Part shown: positions 2,987 to 31,722 of the stretch, one piece after another
How positions within the stretch are numbered: position 1 is the first letter of the stretch
Layout of the letters: the number at the start of each line of letters is the position of its first letter
Assembly (NCBI GenBank): GCA_030681515.1
Contig: JAUXSE010000014.1
Coordinates: forward strand, 1-64,000
Reading direction: 5' to 3'
From: Geothrix sp.
Lineage (GTDB): Bacteria; Acidobacteriota; Holophagae; Holophagales; Holophagaceae
Length of the DNA: 64,000 nucleotides
Notes under the pieces: generated by a model
What the model was told of the DNA's origin: nothing
Databases searched by the model: none
Seen by the model: the letters and a program-made list of their open reading frames with translations, nothing else
Made by a program: the position numbers and the translations under genes

Positions 2987-3829
2987 TTACATGGTCAGAT
3001 CCTCCAGGGGGCTTCGCACGGCGGCGATCTGGCTGGGCGACACCTGGGTGTAGATCGTCGTGGAGCGGATGCTCTCGTGGCTCAGCACCACCTGGATCTT
3101 TCGCAGGTCCGTGCCGTGCTCCAGCAAGTTCGTGGCAAAGGAGTGCCGGAGCATGTGGGGCGTCACCACCTTCCCAATGCCCGCCACGGCGGAGGCGCAG
3201 AGCAGCGCCCGGCGGGCCGTCTCGTGGCAGAGGGGCCGACCGCCTTTCGTGGTGAACAGCCATGGGCGAGGCGGACGCTCATGCTTGTAGTAGGCCTTCA
3301 GAAGCCCGTAGAGCTTCGAATGCATAGGCACCAGCCGCTCCCGGCCACCCTTGCCATGCCGCACGTGGATGACCTGCTGCATCGAGTCGATGTCGGAGGT
3401 CTGAAGTTGCGTCGCCTCGGAGATCCGTAGGCCCGTGGCGTAGATCAGGGCAAAGAACACGCGGTACTTGGCCACAGTGAATCCGTCCAGCACCCGCTGG
3501 ACCTCGGCGGGACTCAGCACTGTGGGTAGGGGCGAGTCCTTCCTCGGCATCGAGATGAAGGCCACCTTCTCCGGCTGCCCCAGCGTCAGCCCGTAGAGGA
3601 ACTTCAGCGCCGAGTAGTGGCAGCGCAGCCGCTCCGGCCCGATGGGCTGGGTCCGGAGGTGGTCAACCCAGCGCCGGATGGCCTCTTGCTCCACCTCCGC
3701 CAGGTCCGCCCCGAGGAACTCCTCGAAACGCCGGACCGATGCCAGGTATTGCTGAATGGTCCCTTTGGCTCGGTCTGCCATTTGCAGATCCCCTTCCAGC
3801 CGGGACAAAGATAGACTGACTGCCTTCAT
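2987..3829 (-). CDS. Tyrosine recombinase/integrase (IS91-associated type)
   Basis: 280 residues. The N-terminal SAM-like core-binding domain covers about residues 15-95. The catalytic domain carries the full set R135 (TGLRISEA), K160 (GKGGRER), H225 and R228 (HMLRHSFA), H251 (LSHES) and the nucleophile Y260 (TTIYTQ). It lies directly upstream of the IS91 transposase on the same strand, a pairing common in IS91-type elements. It lacks the extra alpha-helical insert between patches II and III that marks integron integrases, so it is not IntI. The active site looks intact although its partner is broken. A hairpin lies just upstream of its ATG. Confidence 0.88.
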   Translation of the reverse strand: MKAVSLSLSRLEGDLQMADRAKGTIQQYLASVRRFEEFLGADLAEVEQEAIRRWVDHLRTQPIGPERLRCHYSALKFLYGLTLGQPEKVAFISMPRKDSPLPTVLSPAEVQRVLDGFTVAKYRVFFALIYATGLRISEATQLQTSDIDSMQQVIHVRHGKGGRERLVPMHSKLYGLLKAYYKHERPPRPWLFTTKGGRPLCHETARRALLCASAVAGIGKVVTPHMLRHSFATNLLEHGTDLRKIQVVLSHESIRSTTIYTQVSPSQIAAVRSPLEDLTM

Positions 3830-6076: not shown

Positions 6077-7102
6077 ATGACCCTTCCCGATGTCCGCCAG
6101 CCTGCCGAATGGGAGATCCACAGCCGCTGCTGGCTGGCCTGGCCCAGCCACGGCCACCTCTGGGGGGTCAACCTGGCCCCGGCCCAGGCGGAATTCGCGG
6201 CACTGGGCCGGGCCATTGCCGAGGACGGTGGCGAGGCCCTCGATCTGCTGGTGCAGGACGCCGCGGCCGAAGCCGAAGCCCGGGCGGCCCTGGCGCCGGT
6301 GATCGGGCAGGCGCGGTGCCATCGCGTGCCCGTGGGGGATATCTGGCTGCGGGACACGGCGCCGATCTTCGTGAAGGATGGAACAGGTTCCCTCCAGGCC
6401 GCCTGCTTCCGGTTCAACGGCTGGGGCGGCAAGCATGTGCTCGCTGGCGATGAGCAGGTCGCGGATCGCGTGGCGGGACTGAGCGGCATGCCCCGCCGCG
6501 ACCATGGCTGGATCCTGGAAGGCGGTTCCGTGGAGGGGGATGGCGAAGGCACCGTCCTCACCACCCGCCAATGCCTGCTCAACCCCAACCGCAATCCCGG
6601 CATGGATCAGGCCGATGTCGAGGCGGCCCTGCGCCGGGACCTCGGCGCCGAGAAGGTGCTGTGGCTGGACGAGGGCCTGATCAACGATCACACGGACGGC
6701 CATGTGGACACCCTGGCCCGCTTCGTGGCGCCCGGCGTGGTGGTGTGCATGGAGGCCCGGGCTCCCGGCGATCCCAATGCCGCCACCCTGGACCGCATCG
6801 CCGCGGATCTGGCGGCCTTCACCGATGCGCGGGGCCGGAAGCTCCAGGTGGTGCGCATCCCTTCGCCGGGCCTGGTGCGGGACGAAGCTGGCGAGCCCAT
6901 GCCCGCCAGCTTCGTGAACTTCTACATCGGCAACCGCAGCGTGGTGGTGCCCACCTACGGCACGTCCCATGACGGGGCCGCCGTGGCGGCCCTGGCACCC
7001 CTGTTCCCGGGGCGCCGGGTGGTGGGCCGCTCCGCCCGGGCCATCCTCAGCGGGGGCGGCGCCTTCCACTGCATCACCCAGCAGCAGCCGGAGGTTCTGT
7101 GA
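6077..7102 (+). CDS. aguA: Agmatine deiminase
   Basis: 341 residues of the peptidyl-arginine deiminase fold. It hydrolyses agmatine to N-carbamoylputrescine and ammonia in the cytoplasm. Key motifs are W-(A/S)-WP (CWLAWPSHG), the WLRDTAP motif, FNGWGGK, EGGSVEGDGEGT, NDHTDGHVDTLARF and the catalytic cysteine in GGGAFHCITQQ (C332). The start at 6077 was chosen because the protein begins at the conserved PAEWE segment and a GGAAAAG ribosome site precedes it. The stop overlaps the GTG start of the amidase gene by 4 bp, so the two enzymes of one pathway are translationally coupled. Confidence 0.93.
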   Translation: MTLPDVRQPAEWEIHSRCWLAWPSHGHLWGVNLAPAQAEFAALGRAIAEDGGEALDLLVQDAAAEAEARAALAPVIGQARCHRVPVGDIWLRDTAPIFVKDGTGSLQAACFRFNGWGGKHVLAGDEQVADRVAGLSGMPRRDHGWILEGGSVEGDGEGTVLTTRQCLLNPNRNPGMDQADVEAALRRDLGAEKVLWLDEGLINDHTDGHVDTLARFVAPGVVVCMEARAPGDPNAATLDRIAADLAAFTDARGRKLQVVRIPSPGLVRDEAGEPMPASFVNFYIGNRSVVVPTYGTSHDGAAVAALAPLFPGRRVVGRSARAILSGGGAFHCITQQQPEVL

Positions 7103-7953
7103 ACCCGACGAACAGCGTCCGCGTTGCCGCCACCCAGTGCGCCTTCACCAGCAGCCTTGATGAAAACGTGGCCCGGGTCGAGGCCCTGGTGCGAGAGGCC
7201 GCCGCCCGGGGCGCCCAGGTGATCCTGCCCTCGGAGCTGTTCGAGGGGCTCTACTTCTGCCGCGAAGAAAAGGACGCCTTCTTCGACTGGGCGCGACCAG
7301 CCGAGGGCCATCCCACCATCACCCGGTTCCAGAAGCTGGCCCAGGAGCTGGGCGTGGTGATCCCGGTCTCCTTCTTCGAGCGGGATGGCCACGCCTTCTA
7401 CAACAGCCTGGCCATGGTGGACGCGGATGGCGCCGTGCTCGGCGTCTACCGCAAGAGCCACATCCCGGACGGACCCGGCTACGAGGAGAAGTTCTACTTC
7501 CGGCCCGGCAACACGGGCTTCAAGGTGTGGGACACGCGCTTCGGCAAGCTGGGCGTGGGCATCTGCTGGGACCAGTGGTACCCCGAATGCGCCCGGGCCA
7601 TGCTGCTCCTGGGCGCGGAGATCCTGCTGTATCCCACGGCCATCGGCACCGAGCCCGAGAACCCTGGCCTGGATACCAAGGATCTGTGGCAGCGGGCCAT
7701 GATCGGCCACGCGGTCTCCAACGTGGTGCCCGTGGTGGCCTCCAACCGCGTGGGCCTGGAAGGCGGCCAGACCTTCTACGGCCATTCCTTCATCGCGGAC
7801 CACCGCGGCGACAAGGTGGCCGAACTGGGGCGGACGGAATCGGGCGTGATCACGGCGGAACTGGATCTCGACGAGATCCGGCGGAACCGGGCCTCCTTCG
7901 GCTTTTTCCGGGACCGGCGGCCGGACCTCTACGGGATCATCTCCCGGGCCTGA
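7099..7953 (+). CDS. aguB: N-carbamoylputrescine amidase
   Basis: 284-residue carbon-nitrogen hydrolase with the Glu-Lys-Cys triad: E46 (LPSELFEG), K119 (YRKSHIPDG) and C156 (GICWDQWYPE). It hydrolyses N-carbamoylputrescine to putrescine, CO2 and ammonia, completing the agmatine route to putrescine. It starts with GTG at 7099 in a GTGA overlap with the agmatine deiminase stop. Length and the YEEKFYF-PG segment agree with the plant and Pseudomonas AguB type. No arginine decarboxylase gene is in the window. Confidence 0.93.
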   Translation: MNPTNSVRVAATQCAFTSSLDENVARVEALVREAAARGAQVILPSELFEGLYFCREEKDAFFDWARPAEGHPTITRFQKLAQELGVVIPVSFFERDGHAFYNSLAMVDADGAVLGVYRKSHIPDGPGYEEKFYFRPGNTGFKVWDTRFGKLGVGICWDQWYPECARAMLLLGAEILLYPTAIGTEPENPGLDTKDLWQRAMIGHAVSNVVPVVASNRVGLEGGQTFYGHSFIADHRGDKVAELGRTESGVITAELDLDEIRRNRASFGFFRDRRPDLYGIISRA

Positions 7954-8279
7954 GCCTCGGGGACTCACCACGGAGGCACGGAGATACGGAGACACGGAGA
8001 CACGGAGGACACAGCGGAATCTCAGCGCGGCCCGGGCTGCAACCAAAGAACTGATTCACCGCCAGGAGGCACCCGGCCACGGAATGACCCTCGAAGTTAG
8101 AGCAAGGCAGCTCCCCGACGAATCGGTTGTCATGCGGGGCCAACCCGCGAATATCAGACTGATCAACCGTCAGAAAGCCGTCCGTTCTGCTCCCCACACA
8201 CTGCTGAACAAAAAAAATGGCTGGCAACCTTGACTGGCCAACACATATCAGCTTCATTCGGAGCCATCAGGAGCACGCC
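7954..8279. other. Non-coding stretch between aguB and the first cassette-like gene
   Basis: 326 bp without a convincing gene. The first part holds the CACGGAG repeat described separately. After about 8040 the base composition drops towards that of the cassette-like genes. A GTTAGAG at 8096-8102 resembles an attC core (GTTRRRY) but fails at the last position and has no convincing left half, so I do not call a site there. Confidence 0.5.
7968..8012 (+). repeat. Short tandem CACGGAG repeat
   Basis: Five closely spaced CGGAG units (CCACGGAGG, CACGGAGAT, ACGGAGACA, CGGAGACA, CGGAGGAC) run for about 45 bp just after the aguB stop. Similar CACGGAGA tracts recur between genes in many unrelated bacterial genomes. 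No function is evident. Confidence 0.7.
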
Positions 8280-8516
8280 ATGTTCGCAACGTTCTTCCTG
8301 GCCATTGGAGCACTGTTCTTCTGGATGGTTTTCAAAGGTTTCTCCGAACAGGAAATCAAAGGCCGTGGATGGGGGCTCAACATTCGGATATACCACCGGG
8401 ACAGTGAACCCATCATGTATTGGGTAACATTTGCGTCTTATCTGGTCTGCGCCATCTGGTCCACAGTATTCGGCATTCTCATGGCACTAAAACTGCTTTC
8501 CAATCATGCCGCCTAA
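8280..8516 (+). CDS. Small two-helix membrane protein, cassette-like gene
   Basis: 78 residues starting at ATG 8280, 7 bp after AGGAG. There are two hydrophobic segments: residues 3-18 (TFFLAIGALFFWMVF) and about 46-70 (YWVTFASYLVCAIWSTVFGI). No known family is recognised. Its stop codon (8514-8516) lies inside the first arm of the attC-like repeat that begins at 8511, the usual arrangement of an integron gene cassette. GC content is clearly lower than in the flanking aguB and epimerase genes. Confidence 0.6.
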   Translation: MFATFFLAIGALFFWMVFKGFSEQEIKGRGWGLNIRIYHRDSEPIMYWVTFASYLVCAIWSTVFGILMALKLLSNHAA

Positions 8517-8634
8517 CCTTCCGCTCAACTCGGACCCCGTCTGCATGGCCTTCCGCTTTTTCTTTTCATTCGTCTTTCTCGGCTTCGTTCGGCGCCTCGG
8601 TGCAGGTTGGGCCGGTTTACGGTATTCGTTGGCC
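8511..8634 (+). repeat. attC-like site 1 (124 bp)
   Basis: The left end GCCTAAC (8511-8517) fits the RYYYAAC consensus and is followed by a 5-bp spacer and GCTCAAC, a second-box pattern typical of attC. The right end GTTGGCC (8628-8634) differs from GTTRRRY at one position. TCTGCA (8540-8545) and TGCAG (8601-8605), with GGACCCC and GGGCCGG, form the inner stem. It is about 80% identical to the 124-bp repeat at 30176-30299, which ends in a perfect GTTAGGC. Confidence 0.65.
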
Positions 8635-8658
8635 GCCGTCAATCACTCAGGAGTTCTC

Positions 8659-9117
8659 TTGCTCAAGGCACTTCTGCAAATCACATTCTGCTTTGTCCTG
8701 CTCGACGGTTGCGTTTCGAATCCGAAGAGTCAGAGTGACCCGGTTCCAACTGTCCGGTTGGGTGATCCTTTGTTCGCAAAAGACGCGCCTAGGCTCGTTT
8801 CCTATCGAGACATAGAGCTTTCATACCAGCCACCAACTCCTCCCTACCCACAACAGGCTTTGGGTGAGGGTATCCAAGGTGAGGTGCTCGTAGAGGTCTG
8901 GGTGGATGCGAAGGGTACCCCTACGAGATCCACAGCACTTCTTGGGCCGAAAGAGCTTCGCCTGGTCGCAGCTGACTACATCCTCGGATGGCGCTTCAAA
9001 CCGTATCCTTTTGAAGGCTCACCTATCCCTACGAGGTTCCGCGTCTCGATGCCGTTCCGCCTGTTTCGTGGCGATGTGGGTCCGTTCCGACGTCTTCCCA
9101 AAGGGCTCGAATATTGA
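8659..9117 (+). CDS. Lipoprotein with TonB C-terminal-like domain, cassette-like gene
   Basis: From TTG 8659 (5 bp after AGGAG) the product is 152 residues with a lipoprotein signal (LKALLQITFCFVLLDGC, lipobox cysteine about residue 18). The C-terminal half has the TonB-C pattern: PPYPQQALGEGIQGEVLVEV, WVDAKGTPTRS, and AADYILGWRFKPYP. Proteins with only this domain occur in many Gram-negatives and are not necessarily TonB. Longer in-frame starts lie inside the attC-like repeat and would give a nonsense leader, so the TTG is preferred. It sits between an attC-like site and a half site, as a cassette gene would. Confidence 0.65.
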   Translation: MLKALLQITFCFVLLDGCVSNPKSQSDPVPTVRLGDPLFAKDAPRLVSYRDIELSYQPPTPPYPQQALGEGIQGEVLVEVWVDAKGTPTRSTALLGPKELRLVAADYILGWRFKPYPFEGSPIPTRFRVSMPFRLFRGDVGPFRRLPKGLEY

Positions 9118-9126
9118 CATCCGTGC

Positions 9127-9150
9127 GGCTAACCTCCCGCTGAACCGGGC
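9127..9150 (+). repeat. Left half of an attC-like site
   Basis: GGCTAACCTCCCGCTGAAC (9127-9145) aligns with the first arm of the 8511 repeat, with four mismatches. No matching right arm or GTTRRRY core follows before the epimerase gene, so the site is truncated and marks the right edge of this cassette-like patch. The rest of the gap to 9248 holds only the ribosome site (GGAG) of the next gene. Confidence 0.45.
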
Positions 9151-9248: not shown

Positions 9249-10730
9249 GTGCTAAAGCCCCTCGCCCTTCTCGCAGCCCTGGCGTTGGTCATGATCAGCC
9301 ATCCGGCGAAGGCCCAGGTGGCGTCGGTGGTTTCCACCTCCCGTGTCCCGGCGGAGCTGCCCACGGGCGAACGCTGGCTGAGGCATTTCCGGGAGGATCT
9401 GCTGCCCTTCTGGAATGTGGCGGACGCCTGGGGTTCGCCCCGGGGGGATTTCCCCACCTTCCGGGGCAACGATGGCAAGGCCGTGGACTGGATGCAGCCG
9501 CCGGACGAACTCGCCACGGCGCCGGGCTGGATCAAGGAGAACTTCGGTCGCGAGTACGTGCGCATGAAGTCCCGCCAGACCTACTTCTACGGCGTGGCCT
9601 ACCACCTGACGGGCGATCCCAGGATGCTCGAACTGGCCCGGGATGGCGCGGCCTTCATCCGGAAGCAGGCCCTGGATCCGGCCACCGGCAGTGCCGTGTC
9701 CTACTGGGAGAAGGGGGTGCCGCAACCGGAAGTCCTGGCCCGCACCAGCCAGGATCTGGCCTACGCCCAGCTGGGCCTGGCCATGTACTACTACCTCACC
9801 CGCGACGAGGCCGTGCTGCGGGATATCAAGAGGTTGAAGCGGCACATCTTCACCCGGTACTGGAATCCCGAGTGGCAGGCCCTGCGCTGGGTGGTGAAGG
9901 AGAACCCCCAGGACGAGCACCGGCGTCAGGAACTGGTGGCCCAGCTGGATCAGATCAACGCCTACCTGCTGCTGCTCGCGCCCATCCTGCCCGAACGCGA
10001 CCGGAAGGCTTGGACCACCGATCTGAAGCGCCTCGCCCGGGCGATGGTGCGCGACTACCACGACGTGGATCGCCACCTCTTCTGGGGCACCCTCCACGAT
10101 CCCGCCCAGAAGAAGCTGGGCTCCCGCCACACGGATTTCGGCCACAGCGCCAAGGCCTACTGGATGCTCGAACGCGTGGGGCGGCTCACCAGGGATCCGG
10201 CCCTGGTGGCCCTCGCCACCACCGGCGCCCAGGCGGTGCTCAAGCAGGCCTACCTGCCGGATTCCGGCACCTGGGGATCGCGGTTGCGGCCGGACGGCTC
10301 GGTGGACACCGGCAAAGAGTGGTGGATCTACGCGGAGCTGGATCAGTTGGCGGCGACGCTGGCCCTGCTGGATCCGGCCCAGGCCATGCCCCTGCCCCGC
10401 ACCGCGGACTTCTGGTTCCGCCGCATGGTGGACCCGGTGAACCACGAGGTCTGGGGCGGCGCGGGCGGCCCGGAGTTCAAACCCTGGAGCGGGCCCAAGA
10501 TCCACCAGTGGAAGAGTGGCTACCACTCCGCCGAGCACGCCCTGGTGGGCTACCTCACGGCCCAGGCCCTGCACGGCGAACCGGCCATCCTCTACTTCGC
10601 GCCCCGCGATGCCCGGGCGCTCCTGCGGCCCTACGTCTTCGAGGGAACCATCGCGAGCCGCAGCAGCCAGCCTCTGCCCGGATTCCCGGGGCGGCGGCAG
10701 GTGGCGGTGGCCTTCACGGGGCTGCGCTGA
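9249..10730 (+). CDS. Secreted N-acylglucosamine 2-epimerase-superfamily protein
   Basis: 493 residues starting with GTG at 9249, 7 bp after GGAG. A signal peptide (LALLAALALVMISHPAKAQ) precedes an (alpha/alpha)6-barrel of the AGE superfamily. Recognisable motifs are MKSRQTYFYGVAYHLTGD near residue 100, HTDFGHSAKAYWML near 295, EWWIYAELDQLAATLALLD near 355 and QWKSGYHSAEHALVGYL near 420, which carry the usual barrel-lining histidines and glutamates. Substrate unknown: cytosolic relatives isomerise GlcNAc, mannose or cellobiose, while this one is predicted periplasmic. It converges on the maltodextrin locus and may act on its sugars, but that is conjecture. Confidence 0.75.
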   Translation: MLKPLALLAALALVMISHPAKAQVASVVSTSRVPAELPTGERWLRHFREDLLPFWNVADAWGSPRGDFPTFRGNDGKAVDWMQPPDELATAPGWIKENFGREYVRMKSRQTYFYGVAYHLTGDPRMLELARDGAAFIRKQALDPATGSAVSYWEKGVPQPEVLARTSQDLAYAQLGLAMYYYLTRDEAVLRDIKRLKRHIFTRYWNPEWQALRWVVKENPQDEHRRQELVAQLDQINAYLLLLAPILPERDRKAWTTDLKRLARAMVRDYHDVDRHLFWGTLHDPAQKKLGSRHTDFGHSAKAYWMLERVGRLTRDPALVALATTGAQAVLKQAYLPDSGTWGSRLRPDGSVDTGKEWWIYAELDQLAATLALLDPAQAMPLPRTADFWFRRMVDPVNHEVWGGAGGPEFKPWSGPKIHQWKSGYHSAEHALVGYLTAQALHGEPAILYFAPRDARALLRPYVFEGTIASRSSQPLPGFPGRRQVAVAFTGLR

Positions 10731-28592: not shown

Positions 28593-29561
28593 ATGAAGAT
28601 CACCATCGGCGAGATCGCCCGTCAGGCCGGCGTTTCCACGGGCACGGTGAGCCGCGTCATCAATGACCGGCCCACCGTGGCCTCCGGAACCCGCGCCACG
28701 GTCCTCGCCGTGATGAAGAAGCTCGGCTACGAGCCCGATCCCGTGGCCCGGGAGCTGTCGCGGCGCACCCGGCACACCCTCGGCATCTGGGTGGGCGCGG
28801 GCGAGAACCGGCTATCGCCCTACTTCAACGTCATCTGGCGCGCCCTGCTTCACGAGATGCAGCTCCATGCCACGCAGTTCATCGAGCTGCCCGTGGACAT
28901 CACGCCCGTGCGCCGGCGTCTGGACGCGGTGCTGATGTTCCACTGCGCCGATATTGACCAGCGCCTGGCCACCCTGTGGCGGCGCGGTGTGCCCGGCGCC
29001 CTCATCGGCCATCATCCGGGGGTTTCCTGTGTGGCGCCCGACGATATCGGCGGCGGCCGTCTCGCCGCGGCCCGGCTCCTGTCCCTGGGCCACCGGGATC
29101 TGCTGCACCTCACCGTATCCGACGAACATCAGTGGGCCGTGGACCGCGCCGCCGGGTTCATGGCATCCATCGCCGAAAGCGCGGGCGCCTCCCTGGCCCC
29201 CGTGATCCTGCGTGGCGGCGGGTCCGTGCTGGGCGGCTATCGGCTCATGCGCGACGCCTGGCAACGGGGCCATCGGCCCACGGGCATCTTCTGCGCCACG
29301 GACGAGATGGCCGTGGGCGTCCTGGGCGCCCTGGCCGATCTCGGCGTGCCCGTGCCCGGCCAGGTGTCCGTGCTGGGCTTCGACGGGCTCGTGGATCTCT
29401 ACCCGGGCCTGGCCTCCGTGGCCCAGGATATCCCCGCCATCGCCCACGAGGCCGTCACCCTCGCCCTCGCCGCCATCGAGCGCGACGCCGTCCGGCACAT
29501 CGTGGTCCCCGTGAAGATCGTCGAGGGCGCCACCCTGGGGCCCGCGCCGGGGAAGGGCTGA
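28593..29561 (+). CDS. LacI-family transcriptional regulator of the glucan locus
   Basis: 322 residues. The N-terminal helix-turn-helix TIGEIARQAGVSTGTVSRVINDRPTVA is followed by the hinge helix YEPDPVARELSRRT and a periplasmic-binding-protein-like effector domain (HRPTGIFCATDEMAVGVLGAL, VSVLGFDGL). Its position after glk and next to two palindromic operators suggests it controls maltodextrin use, probably as a repressor relieved by a sugar. The effector is unknown. Start ATG 28593 places the HTH at the N-terminus as in all family members. Confidence 0.92.
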   Translation: MKITIGEIARQAGVSTGTVSRVINDRPTVASGTRATVLAVMKKLGYEPDPVARELSRRTRHTLGIWVGAGENRLSPYFNVIWRALLHEMQLHATQFIELPVDITPVRRRLDAVLMFHCADIDQRLATLWRRGVPGALIGHHPGVSCVAPDDIGGGRLAAARLLSLGHRDLLHLTVSDEHQWAVDRAAGFMASIAESAGASLAPVILRGGGSVLGGYRLMRDAWQRGHRPTGIFCATDEMAVGVLGALADLGVPVPGQVSVLGFDGLVDLYPGLASVAQDIPAIAHEAVTLALAAIERDAVRHIVVPVKIVEGATLGPAPGKG

Positions 29562-29591: not shown

Positions 29592-29598
29592 GTTGGGC
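29592..29598 (+). repeat. Possible attC core at the left edge of cassette patch 2
   Basis: GTTGGGC fits the GTTRRRY core exactly and lies between the regulator gene and the toxin gene, where the composition changes from about 70% GC to much lower. A left arm is not convincing, so this may be a remnant or chance. Confidence 0.3.
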
Positions 29599-29601
29599 GC
29601 C

Positions 29602-29856
29602 TCAGTAATGGAATCGCAGCTGAGCAATCAACAGAGCATTGCCTTCAACTCGATACACCATGCGGTGCTCATCAGTTAAGCGGCGTGACCAGAATCCTGC
29701 CAATGCATGTTTCAATGCTTCTGGCTTTCCAATTCCAGAAAAAGGTTCGCGTTGAACCTCTTTTATCAGCTTGTTGATCCGTTCGACCATCTGCTTATCG
29801 TGCTTTTGCCAATACAGGTGGTCTTCCCATGCATCGTCCGCGAAAATCAACCTCAC
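29602..29856 (-). CDS. yoeB: YoeB-type toxin (RelE/ParE superfamily mRNA interferase)
   Basis: 84 residues, the same length as E. coli YoeB, with its active-site set in the same positions: E46, R65 and the C-terminal H83-Y84 (RFHY). It cuts mRNA on the ribosome when free of antitoxin. The start overlaps the antitoxin stop by 4 bp (ATGA). The pair lies on the minus strand, opposite to the attC-like site that follows it. Toxin-antitoxin cassettes with their own promoter are known to stabilise integron arrays. Confidence 0.93.
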   Translation of the reverse strand: MRLIFADDAWEDHLYWQKHDKQMVERINKLIKEVQREPFSGIGKPEALKHALAGFWSRRLTDEHRMVYRVEGNALLIAQLRFHY

Positions 29857-30104
29857 TTGACCAGCTTCCGCTCAACGCCTTTCCCGGCGTTCAGTTGTGT
29901 GACAGCCGCGAGAAGGCGCTTAGCGTTAGCGGGTGTACGCAGCAAGTAGGCCGTTTCCTCAAGCGCGTTGAAGTCTTCAAGCGAGAGCATAACCACGGCC
30001 TGCTCGCCGTTGCGGGTAATGATCAATGCTTCGTGGTCGTTGCAAACTCGGTTCATGGTGCTGGCAAGGTTTGCTCGTGCGGTCGTGTAGGTCACTGCGT
30101 TCAT
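29853..30104 (-). CDS. yefM: YefM-type antitoxin (Phd/YefM family)
   Basis: 83 residues beginning MNAVTYTTARANLASTMNRV, the Phd/YefM DNA-binding fold, then ALIITRNGEQAVVMLSLEDFNALEETAYLL. The flexible C-terminus wraps the toxin. It neutralises YoeB and represses the operon by binding TGTACA-type boxes, which are present just upstream. Translationally coupled to yoeB. Confidence 0.93.
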   Translation of the reverse strand: MNAVTYTTARANLASTMNRVCNDHEALIITRNGEQAVVMLSLEDFNALEETAYLLRTPANAKRLLAAVTQLNAGKGVERKLVK

Positions 30105-30120
30105 GAGAGTCCTCCCGACG

Positions 30121-30138
30121 TGTACCGTTTAATGTACA
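30121..30138. promoter_or_regulatory. YefM operator boxes
   Basis: TGTAC (30121-30125) and TGTACA (30133-30138) flank CGTTTAA, 17-34 bp upstream of the yefM ATG. E. coli YefM recognises palindromes with a TGTACA core, so this is the expected autoregulation site and shows that the module carries its own promoter. Confidence 0.65.
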
Positions 30139-30175
30139 GCTCAAGCTCCTGCCTGTCAAGTCCGCGGGCGGCGGC

Positions 30176-30299
30176 GCCCAGCCCTCCGCTCAACTCAGAC
30201 CCCGCCTGCATGGCCTTCCGCTCTTTCTCTTGTCCCGTCTTCCTCGGCTTCGTTCAACGCCTCGGTGCAGGCGGGGCCGGTCAGCTGCTTTCGTTAGGC
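30176..30299 (+). repeat. attC-like site 2 (124 bp)
   Basis: Left end GCCCAGC, spacer, then GCTCAAC. The right end is TTTCGTTAGGC with a perfect GTTAGGC core at 30293-30299. Inner arms GGACCCC-like AGACCCCGCCTGCA (30199-30212) and TGCAGGCGGGGCCGG (30266-30280) pair well. Length is identical to site 1 at 8511-8634 and identity is about 80%, including the loop. Host-specific attC sites of uniform length are a hallmark of chromosomal integron arrays. Confidence 0.72.
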
Positions 30300-30327
30300 A
30301 CCCCACATGTTTCCCTGAGGAGATTCA

Positions 30328-30951
30328 ATGAAAGCCCTCGTTCAACGCCTAGCCTTGCTTCTCTCCTGCTCGGCCTTCCTTGGCGCCCAAGACATCAGTT
30401 GGGGCATTCAGCTTTCTACAGGATCTCCACTCGGTGGTCTGTCGAATGATCAGTACGCGGGCACACATAAAACATTCAACGGAGCTGGGGGCATCGGCCT
30501 CAATCTGAGTTATCAGGTTTCCGGTCTTGACGACATAAGAGCAACAGTCAACTCAATCGGATTCACGGGTGAATTTGAAAATATTGATCCCTCGACGGCC
30601 TTCCGAAATGAGTATCACTACTTTCAAGTTGGCGTCGAATGGTGCCATTACTTCAACTCGCGAAATCATGGATGGAATGCTGGATTCGGCATTAATACTA
30701 CTGAACTCTATCGAGACGTAACTGTAATGACTCCTTCTCCCTTTGGCGGTACATGGGGTTCGACCTCACGCTTTCAGCAATATAGAAAACTCGGCATCAG
30801 TGCCAATGGTGGTTATCAATTCAAGCCCTGGCTTGGCATTGTTGGCTCAATTCATCATGTGAACCTTGGTGACGATCAGGGCGAACCACTGCCCCTGAAA
30901 AGCGCGCAATGGCTACAACTTGGCGTCCTGTTTCATTTTGGTCGTAAGTGA
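30328..30951 (+). CDS. Probable outer-membrane beta-barrel protein, cassette-like gene
   Basis: 207 residues. A signal peptide (VQRLALLLSCSAFLGAQ) is followed by amphipathic strands such as GGIGLNLSYQV, YFQVGVEWCHYF, GWNAGFGINTTEL and LGISANGGYQF, and the end WLQLGVLFHFGRK, with an aromatic residue close to the C-terminus as in small outer-membrane barrels. No named family recognised. GAGGAG precedes the ATG. Codon use and GC are lower than in neighbouring chromosomal genes. It directly follows an attC-like site. Confidence 0.65.
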   Translation: MKALVQRLALLLSCSAFLGAQDISWGIQLSTGSPLGGLSNDQYAGTHKTFNGAGGIGLNLSYQVSGLDDIRATVNSIGFTGEFENIDPSTAFRNEYHYFQVGVEWCHYFNSRNHGWNAGFGINTTELYRDVTVMTPSPFGGTWGSTSRFQQYRKLGISANGGYQFKPWLGIVGSIHHVNLGDDQGEPLPLKSAQWLQLGVLFHFGRK

Positions 30952-30971
30952 AGGGGTACCCTCCGCTCATC

Positions 30972-31105
30972 CGTGAGAACGGATTCACCATCCCCAATGC
31001 TTCAGGCGATGCCATTCTGTTCTCCAACACCGTTCCGCTTTTCAAGGGCTCTGCAACATCCTTGATCTTTTCCAACCCCAAGGCCTGTCTTTCTCCGTTC
31101 TCACG
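30972..31105. repeat. 12-bp perfect inverted repeat spanning 134 bp
   Basis: CGTGAGAACGGA (30972-30983) and TCCGTTCTCACG (31094-31105) are perfect complements. Flanking CCCTC and GAGGGG extend the pairing. It lies between the outer-membrane-protein gene and the attC-like site at 31122. It could be a small non-autonomous element or the outer arms of a second long attC-like fold. Confidence 0.55.
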
Positions 31106-31121
31106 TTGAGGGGAGCAAGCG

Positions 31122-31195
31122 GTCCAACCCATCATTCAACCCGGACGCTGCCTCTGCGAGTCATCGGCCGCCCCGTCGCGCAGCTTTCGTTAGGA
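31122..31195 (+). repeat. attC-like site 3 (about 74 bp)
   Basis: GTCCAAC (31122-31128) fits RYYYAAC, followed by a spacer and ATTCAAC. The right end CAGCTTTCGTTAGGA repeats the end of site 2, with core GTTAGGA (last base off consensus). The size is that of a classical 59-base element. The left arm CCCTCCGCTCATC at 30959-30971 also matches site 1, so this may be a hybrid of two sites. Confidence 0.5.
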
Positions 31196-31200
31196 CTTCT

Positions 31201-31653
31201 ATGAACCCTCGGTTCCTCGTCCTGCCCATTCTTCTAGCCACCGACCTGATTTCACAGGCCCGTCCGACGGCGAAAATCAGTCGCCCCGAGTTGATGACGT
31301 TGATTGGCCTGAACGATTCATCGAAGAACCCAGATCTACAGCCGGGCCTTCACGCTGCAAAGCCCCAAGGCCACCCGGGCCTGTTCAAACTGGACCCCTC
31401 GGAATTCCCCCATGGATTCAGAGGACAAATCATCTGCCAGCTGTTCATCAACACTGCTGGCAAGGTTGACCGTGTCGAAACACTGTATGGTCCCCCATCT
31501 CTGAAAAATCATGCTGTTGCCTATGCACACCGTTGGGACTTTGCCCCTGAACCTACTCCCAGCAGCCTTTATCCTGTTTTCCTTTACATTGATGTTCGCT
31601 TCAAAGACACAAGGGCATACAGTGCCGATGCCATGATCTCGGTTGCGCCCTGA
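31201..31653 (+). CDS. Exported protein with TonB C-terminal-like domain, cassette-like gene
   Basis: 150 residues. A hydrophobic start (FLVLPILLATDLISQA) suggests export. The domain HGFRGQIICQLFINTAGKVDRVETLYGPPSLKNHAVAYAHRWDFAPEP...YPVFLYIDVRF follows the TonB-C pattern (G-V-x-hydrophobic, D/NxxGKV, A--W-F-P). It is the second such gene in cassette context; the first is at 8659. Its ATG is 5 bp after the attC core of site 3, which leaves little room for a ribosome site. Lower GC than flanking genes. Confidence 0.6.
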   Translation: MNPRFLVLPILLATDLISQARPTAKISRPELMTLIGLNDSSKNPDLQPGLHAAKPQGHPGLFKLDPSEFPHGFRGQIICQLFINTAGKVDRVETLYGPPSLKNHAVAYAHRWDFAPEPTPSSLYPVFLYIDVRFKDTRAYSADAMISVAP

Positions 31654-31710
31654 CCCTTCCGCTCATCGCCTCGGCGCAGGCGGGGCCGGTTTGACATCAT
31701 TCGGTAAAGC
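31648..31710 (+). repeat. Degenerate, shortened attC-like site 4
   Basis: CCTTCCGCTCA is joined directly to TCGCCTCGGCGCAGGCGGGG and then CCGGTTTGAC...CGGTAAAGC. It has the same two arms as sites 1 and 2 with the central 60 bp or so deleted. The core (GGTAAAGC) is decayed. It closes the second cassette-like patch. Confidence 0.5.
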
Positions 31711-31722
31711 GAGGAGCGCGGG

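Follow-up and report, generated by a model that had tools for sequence, protein, structure and literature searches.

Gene cassettes outside the chromosomal integron of a Geothrix genome and their probable origin by off-target insertion

Introduction

Off-target insertion of integron cassettes at attG sites was reportedly described by Loot et al. in 2024 in Nat Microbiol 9:228. In the citing passages of PMC12444791, attG insertion is reported from experiments in E. coli, and Loot et al. are also cited in PMC12901181. Clusters of attC sites lacking an integrase (CALINs), which under the default setting of IntegronFinder 2.0 comprise at least two attC sites (PMC9024848), have been given three proposed origins, two of them being off-target insertion and rearrangement (PMC8618304). 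We analyzed a window of 64,000 nucleotides from a Geothrix genome (assembly GCA_030681515.1, contig JAUXSE010000014.1, positions 1 to 64,000), in which a preliminary description had pointed to an integron-like cassette patch around position 8511 (patch 1). It had added that no integron was known from Holophaga-like Acidobacteriota. At the level of the phylum this does not hold, as Acidobacteriota are among the listed integron phyla (PMC8618304) and an attC model for Acidobacteria exists (PMC8352920); for the genera themselves, a search of the open-access literature, with incomplete coverage, turned up no publication dealing with integrons of Geothrix or Holophaga.

Results

The 124-bp repeat with an RYYYAAC-type left end, paired inner arms and a near-GTTRRRY right end was recovered at exactly the positions that had been claimed for it, its R'' box reading GCCTAAC (8511-8517) and its R' box GTTGGCC (8628-8634), one base off GTTRRRY. 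Equally confirmed were the small membrane-protein gene directly before the repeat, with its TAA stop codon inside the R'' box, and the lipoprotein gene behind it, followed at 9127 by a left half-repeat that ranks third among the left arms across the whole window (0.23% of 50-nt stretches score equally high). Since the covariance model R1 was built with both attC sites of the window, its scores for these two are circular, so that the position matrix made without them provides the independent check. This matrix, trained for the left arm on 15 copies all lying outside the window, gives the left arm of the 8511 site a score of 52.6, compared to 4.2 for the best of 60 shuffled windows, while the right arm reaches 34.7 versus a shuffled-window best of 5.3. 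The 8511 repeat is a true attC, the site at which integron cassettes recombine.

Folding of the bottom strand, which had been suggested as a check, gave a divided answer: an intact attC copy from the array described below folds well compared to shuffled sequences (z -3.31), whereas the 8511 copy alone folds no better than its shuffles (z +0.31). The poor fold is due to three mismatched positions in the inner arms, which resemble slightly different subtypes, and it indicates that this copy is somewhat degraded. The 8511 site also has a hybrid-like appearance, with a left arm of the main-array type and a right arm (GCAGGTTGGGCC, GTATTCG) resembling the subtype found on contig C21 (compare locus L033, 6106-6229).

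Table 1. Features of the two cassette patches and their flanks (window coordinates; the slash marks the crossover point).
Feature	Position	Strand	Remarks
Nitrilase / N-carbamoylputrescine amidase-like gene, left flank of patch 1	7099-7953	+	host backbone
Putative left crossover G/TTAGAG, start of cassette 1	8096-8102	+	inferred
Gene cassette 1	8097-8628	+	ends: GTTAGAG left, G of attC R' box right; GC about 0.53
Cassette-1 gene, 78-aa membrane protein	8280-8516	+	weak, sub-threshold DUF4064 resemblance
attC site 1	8511-8634	+	124 nt; folding strand is the bottom strand
Gene cassette 2, right end truncated	8629-9148	+	from TTGGCC of preceding R' box to left attC half
Cassette-2 gene, lipoprotein with TonB C-terminal domain	8659-9117	+	TTG start; lipobox LLDGC; Pfam TonB_C 5.2e-11
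Left half of second attC (GGCTAACCTCCCGCTGAACCGG)	9127-9148	+	15.0 bits; right half missing
Glycosidase gene, first of carbohydrate cluster, right flank of patch 1	9249-10730	+	cluster extends to lacI-type gene at 29561
Patch 2, three dispersed cassettes	29592-31712	+	left crossover GTTGGGC at 29592
YefM-YoeB toxin-antitoxin pair, first cassette of patch 2	29605-30104	-	Pfam YoeB_toxin 1.6e-37, PhdYeFM_antitox 6.4e-24
attC of patch 2	30176-30299	+	R'' mutated to GCCCAGC; 132.8 bits; 85% identity to 8511 site
Second cassette gene of patch 2, 207 aa	30328-30951	+	no Pfam match
Short attC, GTCCAAC ... GTTAGGA	31122-31195	+	74 nt; both end boxes; weak covariance match, 11.7 bits
Third cassette gene of patch 2, TonB_C-like	31201-31653	+	Pfam TonB_C 0.0054, below cut-off

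The two cassettes of patch 1 are, as had been noted, lower in GC than their neighbors (0.528 for cassette 1 and 0.559 for 8629-9150, compared to 0.675 and 0.688 for the left-hand and right-hand genes and 0.663 for the window). The putative left crossover at 8096, which coincides with the drop in GC, is the best GTTRRRY-like heptamer among only three GTT sites in 7954-8279. Contig C1 of this genome bears another dispersed cassette, which encodes a 71% identical paralog of the 78-aa membrane protein, and homologs in five congeners (G058, G062, G059, G003 and G022) are ordinary chromosomal genes without attC directly after them. It is from such an ordinary chromosomal source, judging by these homologs, that the membrane-protein gene was probably captured into a cassette.

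A lack of further copies in the genome was among the points that, in the preliminary description, would together have spoken against its reading. We found 19 others, the family thus comprising 20 copies on eight contigs, ten of which form a single array on contig C11 (C11:132-5817), in one orientation and with cassette spacing, beside an integron integrase gene (intI). In the alignment the intact sites are of the same length, the inner arms pair on the bottom strand and leave three extrahelical bases, 95.5% of cells are paired and three pairs show double changes. Dispersed, structured and about 120 nt long, the repeat could on these properties also be a different kind of element, REP/MITE-like or an RNA gene, rather than attC; the ten-copy array beside IntI with its cassette spacing and single orientation, together with the conserved R boxes, argues against this, as does an Rfam search of the repeat that returned no match, and we give this reading a vanishingly small chance.

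The search for an integrase elsewhere in the genome was successful: the C11 protein, encoded in one open frame, matches the full IntI profile TIGR02249 with 458.2 bits (cut-off 265 bits) and aligns over nearly its full length with the solved structure of VchIntIA, 2A3V (286 bits, 3e-84). This tyrosine recombinase possesses both the insertion specific to IntI and the R-H-R-H-Y residues, of which R144, H275, R278, H301 and Y310 are invariant in an alignment of Geothrix, Comamonas and other Acidobacteria IntI. The gene diverges from the attC array, which is the canonical layout, and a GTTAGGC crossover between intI and the first attC forms an attI-like site, which, recognized by the crossover alone, is likely the attI. 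Judged by these sequence features, contig C11 holds a complete sedentary chromosomal integron; in the draft assembly the contig breaks off at ten attC sites, and the ends of contigs C38 and C21 likewise fall within or close to attC arrays. The integron-like nature proposed for patch 1 is thereby borne out. The statement that it lacks an integrase is accurate for the locus, as no intI scores over the cut-off on its contig, but not for the genome. An M28 peptidase gene beside the C11 intI is kept within 1.5 kb at only one of 29 congeneric intI loci, and no sign of a fixed position of the integron in the genus was found.

The Geothrix-type IntI (locus L029, 6437-7420) shares 74% identity with a Comamonas IntI, a likeness which suggests an old transfer between phyla. 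At the three intI loci of proteobacteria that were tested, no neighboring attC of the Geothrix family turned up.

Across 47 Geothrix genomes, intI was counted in 32 (E <= 1e-60) and attC in 44. Close IntI proteins are present in G. fermentans DSM 14018, G. limicola, G. campi, G. paludis, G. oryzisoli, G. terrae, G. rubra and G. fuzhouensis, and attC sites of the same family adjoin intI in all of them but G. terrae, for which the stretch searched around intI yielded none; complete integrons are carried by cultured, named species. Genome G044, a single contig, has, among the matches listed, about 31 attC beside intI, an array of about 34 at a distance of 0.95 Mb and eight further ones at four other places. 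In the closed genome G055, five places outside the intI locus have attC singles or pairs, while G019, also closed, has two large attC arrays far from its intI genes and one more adjoining one intI. As attC sites lie up to megabases from intI in these closed genomes, the dispersal, which is common in the genus, is not an artifact of assembly.

Two dispersed loci of the present genome have a readable context. On contig C1, a 451-bp cassette with the paralog mentioned above separates gpmI from an NTPase gene, two genes which in six congeners (G052, G005, G022, G059, G062 and G011) are 7-58 bp apart, or nearly so as judged by alignment ends. When the C1 flanks are joined at one G (...GCACTGCGTGCG/ATAGGTGGAGGCG...), they match an unoccupied repeat unit in G015 with the junction unbroken; they also align to another unit in the C1 locus itself, where two positions beside the junction mismatch. 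No base of the target was lost or duplicated, and the empty site is rejoined at one G, as for attG-type insertion. The second locus is patch 2, flanked by lacI (29561) and rsmB (32546), two genes that are only 38-58 bp apart, without patch 2, in G042, G016 and G004. From these comparisons, the cassettes at C1 and at patch 2 are plain insertions, and synteny is maintained to the left and right of each. Patch 2, with one strong and two weak attC sites, is the better CALIN candidate. Patch 1, which had been called a CALIN, has attC without intI nearby, but as its one complete site and a half contrast with the default minimum of two, its assignment to this class is borderline.

Further observations concern the sequence around these loci. 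The insertion on contig C1 (locus L035, 6459-6916) is base-precise within a GC-rich tandem repeat whose copy number varies among congeners. On contig C5 (locus L031, 5730-7396), dispersed cassettes encode a TIR/SEFIR-domain protein, possibly a defense gene, as well as a toxin-antitoxin pair of the Gp49/HI1420 type; the start of the first C5 cassette, GTTAGGCAGCA, is an 11-nt perfect complement of the left end of its attC.

The flanks of patch 1 do not show such synteny. The left-hand nitrilase is 85-91% identical at the amino acid level in 18 congeners, the DNA homology ending at or just past its stop codon, and in two of those checked a MeaB-type convergent gene starts about 10 bp downstream; a DNA-level search of this genome did not find MeaB. 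The left flank reads ...GACCCTCGAAG. Of the 47 congeners, 16 carry the right-hand glycosidase gene, and all those inspected have a GAPDH gene upstream of it, with the exception of G054. An empty site was sought beside the nitrilase (18 congeners) and beside the glycosidase gene (16 genomes) and none was found, because the two flanks are not neighbors in any congener examined. With the nitrilase lacking its usual right neighbor and the glycosidase its usual left one, patch 1 sits at a rearrangement breakpoint, and since this breakpoint has no counterpart in the congeners examined, insertion at patch 1 cannot be proven.

It follows that patch 1 could also be a fragment of an attC array moved by chromosomal rearrangement, perhaps through recombination between dispersed attC sites. 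Consistent with this, it lies exactly at the joint of nitrilase and glycosidase, which are separate in congeners, its right attC is truncated, and GAPDH, the usual neighbor of the glycosidase, is found 77 kb away on the same contig (C34:86.7-87.3 kb); rearrangement is, besides, one of the proposed CALIN origins (PMC8618304). Yet no attC is present at the other visible end, by GAPDH (C34:87 kb), and C1 and patch 2, the other patches with readable context, are plain insertions, so that we consider a rearranged array fragment possible though rather unlikely. Still less probable, and speculative, is a broader reading in which off-target integration by Geothrix IntI would be frequent, seeding single cassettes and secondary arrays and creating breakpoints, and in which patch 1 would mark an attC-mediated joining of the nitrilase and the glycosidase cluster.

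In a further alternative, patch 1 would be the relic of a second integron that lost its own intI. Gene loss is among the proposed CALIN origins (PMC8618304) and three Geothrix genomes (G011, G012 and G019) have two IntI genes each, but there is no intI remnant near patch 1, whose attC is of the same family as the C11 array, and this origin appears highly improbable. The only IntI-like matches on the contig fall on a gene at 2987-3829, which encodes a 281-aa XerC/D-like tyrosine recombinase; it was rejected as IntI, as profile positions 180-238 are unaligned and the score is under the cut-off.

Discussion

Patch 1 is a pair of cassettes outside the integron of its own genome. By analogy with C1 and patch 2, off-target insertion is the best explanation for it, and the C11 IntI probably placed the cassettes there in an attG-type event. 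In such a scheme, the C11 IntI would recombine the folded bottom strand of attC and would mostly put circular cassettes into attI, though from time to time one would enter an unrelated stretch of the chromosome that offers a usable G. The dispersed cassette would remain as a single attC, at which a second cassette might be added, and would slowly decay. Patch 1 would have arrived by the same reaction as C1, with the crossover at G8096, and its second attC would have been truncated later. Counting against this, the left crossover GTTAGAG is a poorer match to R'' than those at C5 or patch 2, no empty site was found, and the second attC consists of a half.

With these findings, Geothrix, an Acidobacteriota genus that is free-living and has cultured type strains, joins those having genus-wide chromosomal integrons. 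C1 would provide a case from nature in which a cassette was inserted elsewhere than at attI, fixed and precise to the base, and the attC sites scattered over closed genomes of a single genus would make the target preference and the rate of off-target insertion measurable in nature.

With regard to known systems, patch 1 resembles CALINs in having attC far from intI and differs from them by its one and a half sites and by the presence of intI in the genome. The CALINs of Xanthomonas outside the ilvD locus (PMC12444791) are alike in that dispersed attC sites occur in genomes keeping intI at a fixed locus; their positions are fairly conserved between species (PMC12444791), whereas at the three places tested here (patch 1, patch 2 and C1) the cassettes are not common to the congeners examined. 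The C1 case resembles attG insertion, as summarized in the citing passages, in that a cassette sits in chromosomal DNA other than an attI or attC site, with the crossover at one G; there the process is known from experiments in E. coli, whereas here it would be naturally fixed in Acidobacteriota, as deduced from sequence alone. The integron itself is comparable to the sedentary chromosomal integrons of Vibrio and Xanthomonas, sharing with them an intI with divergent array, an attI-like site, attC sites of high mutual similarity, cassettes that carry toxin-antitoxin genes and a presence throughout the genus, and differing in its host, Geothrix (Acidobacteriota), and in its own family of 124-nt attC sites. 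Integrons in Acidobacteriota and off-target insertion being already known, the Geothrix case adds to a known kind.
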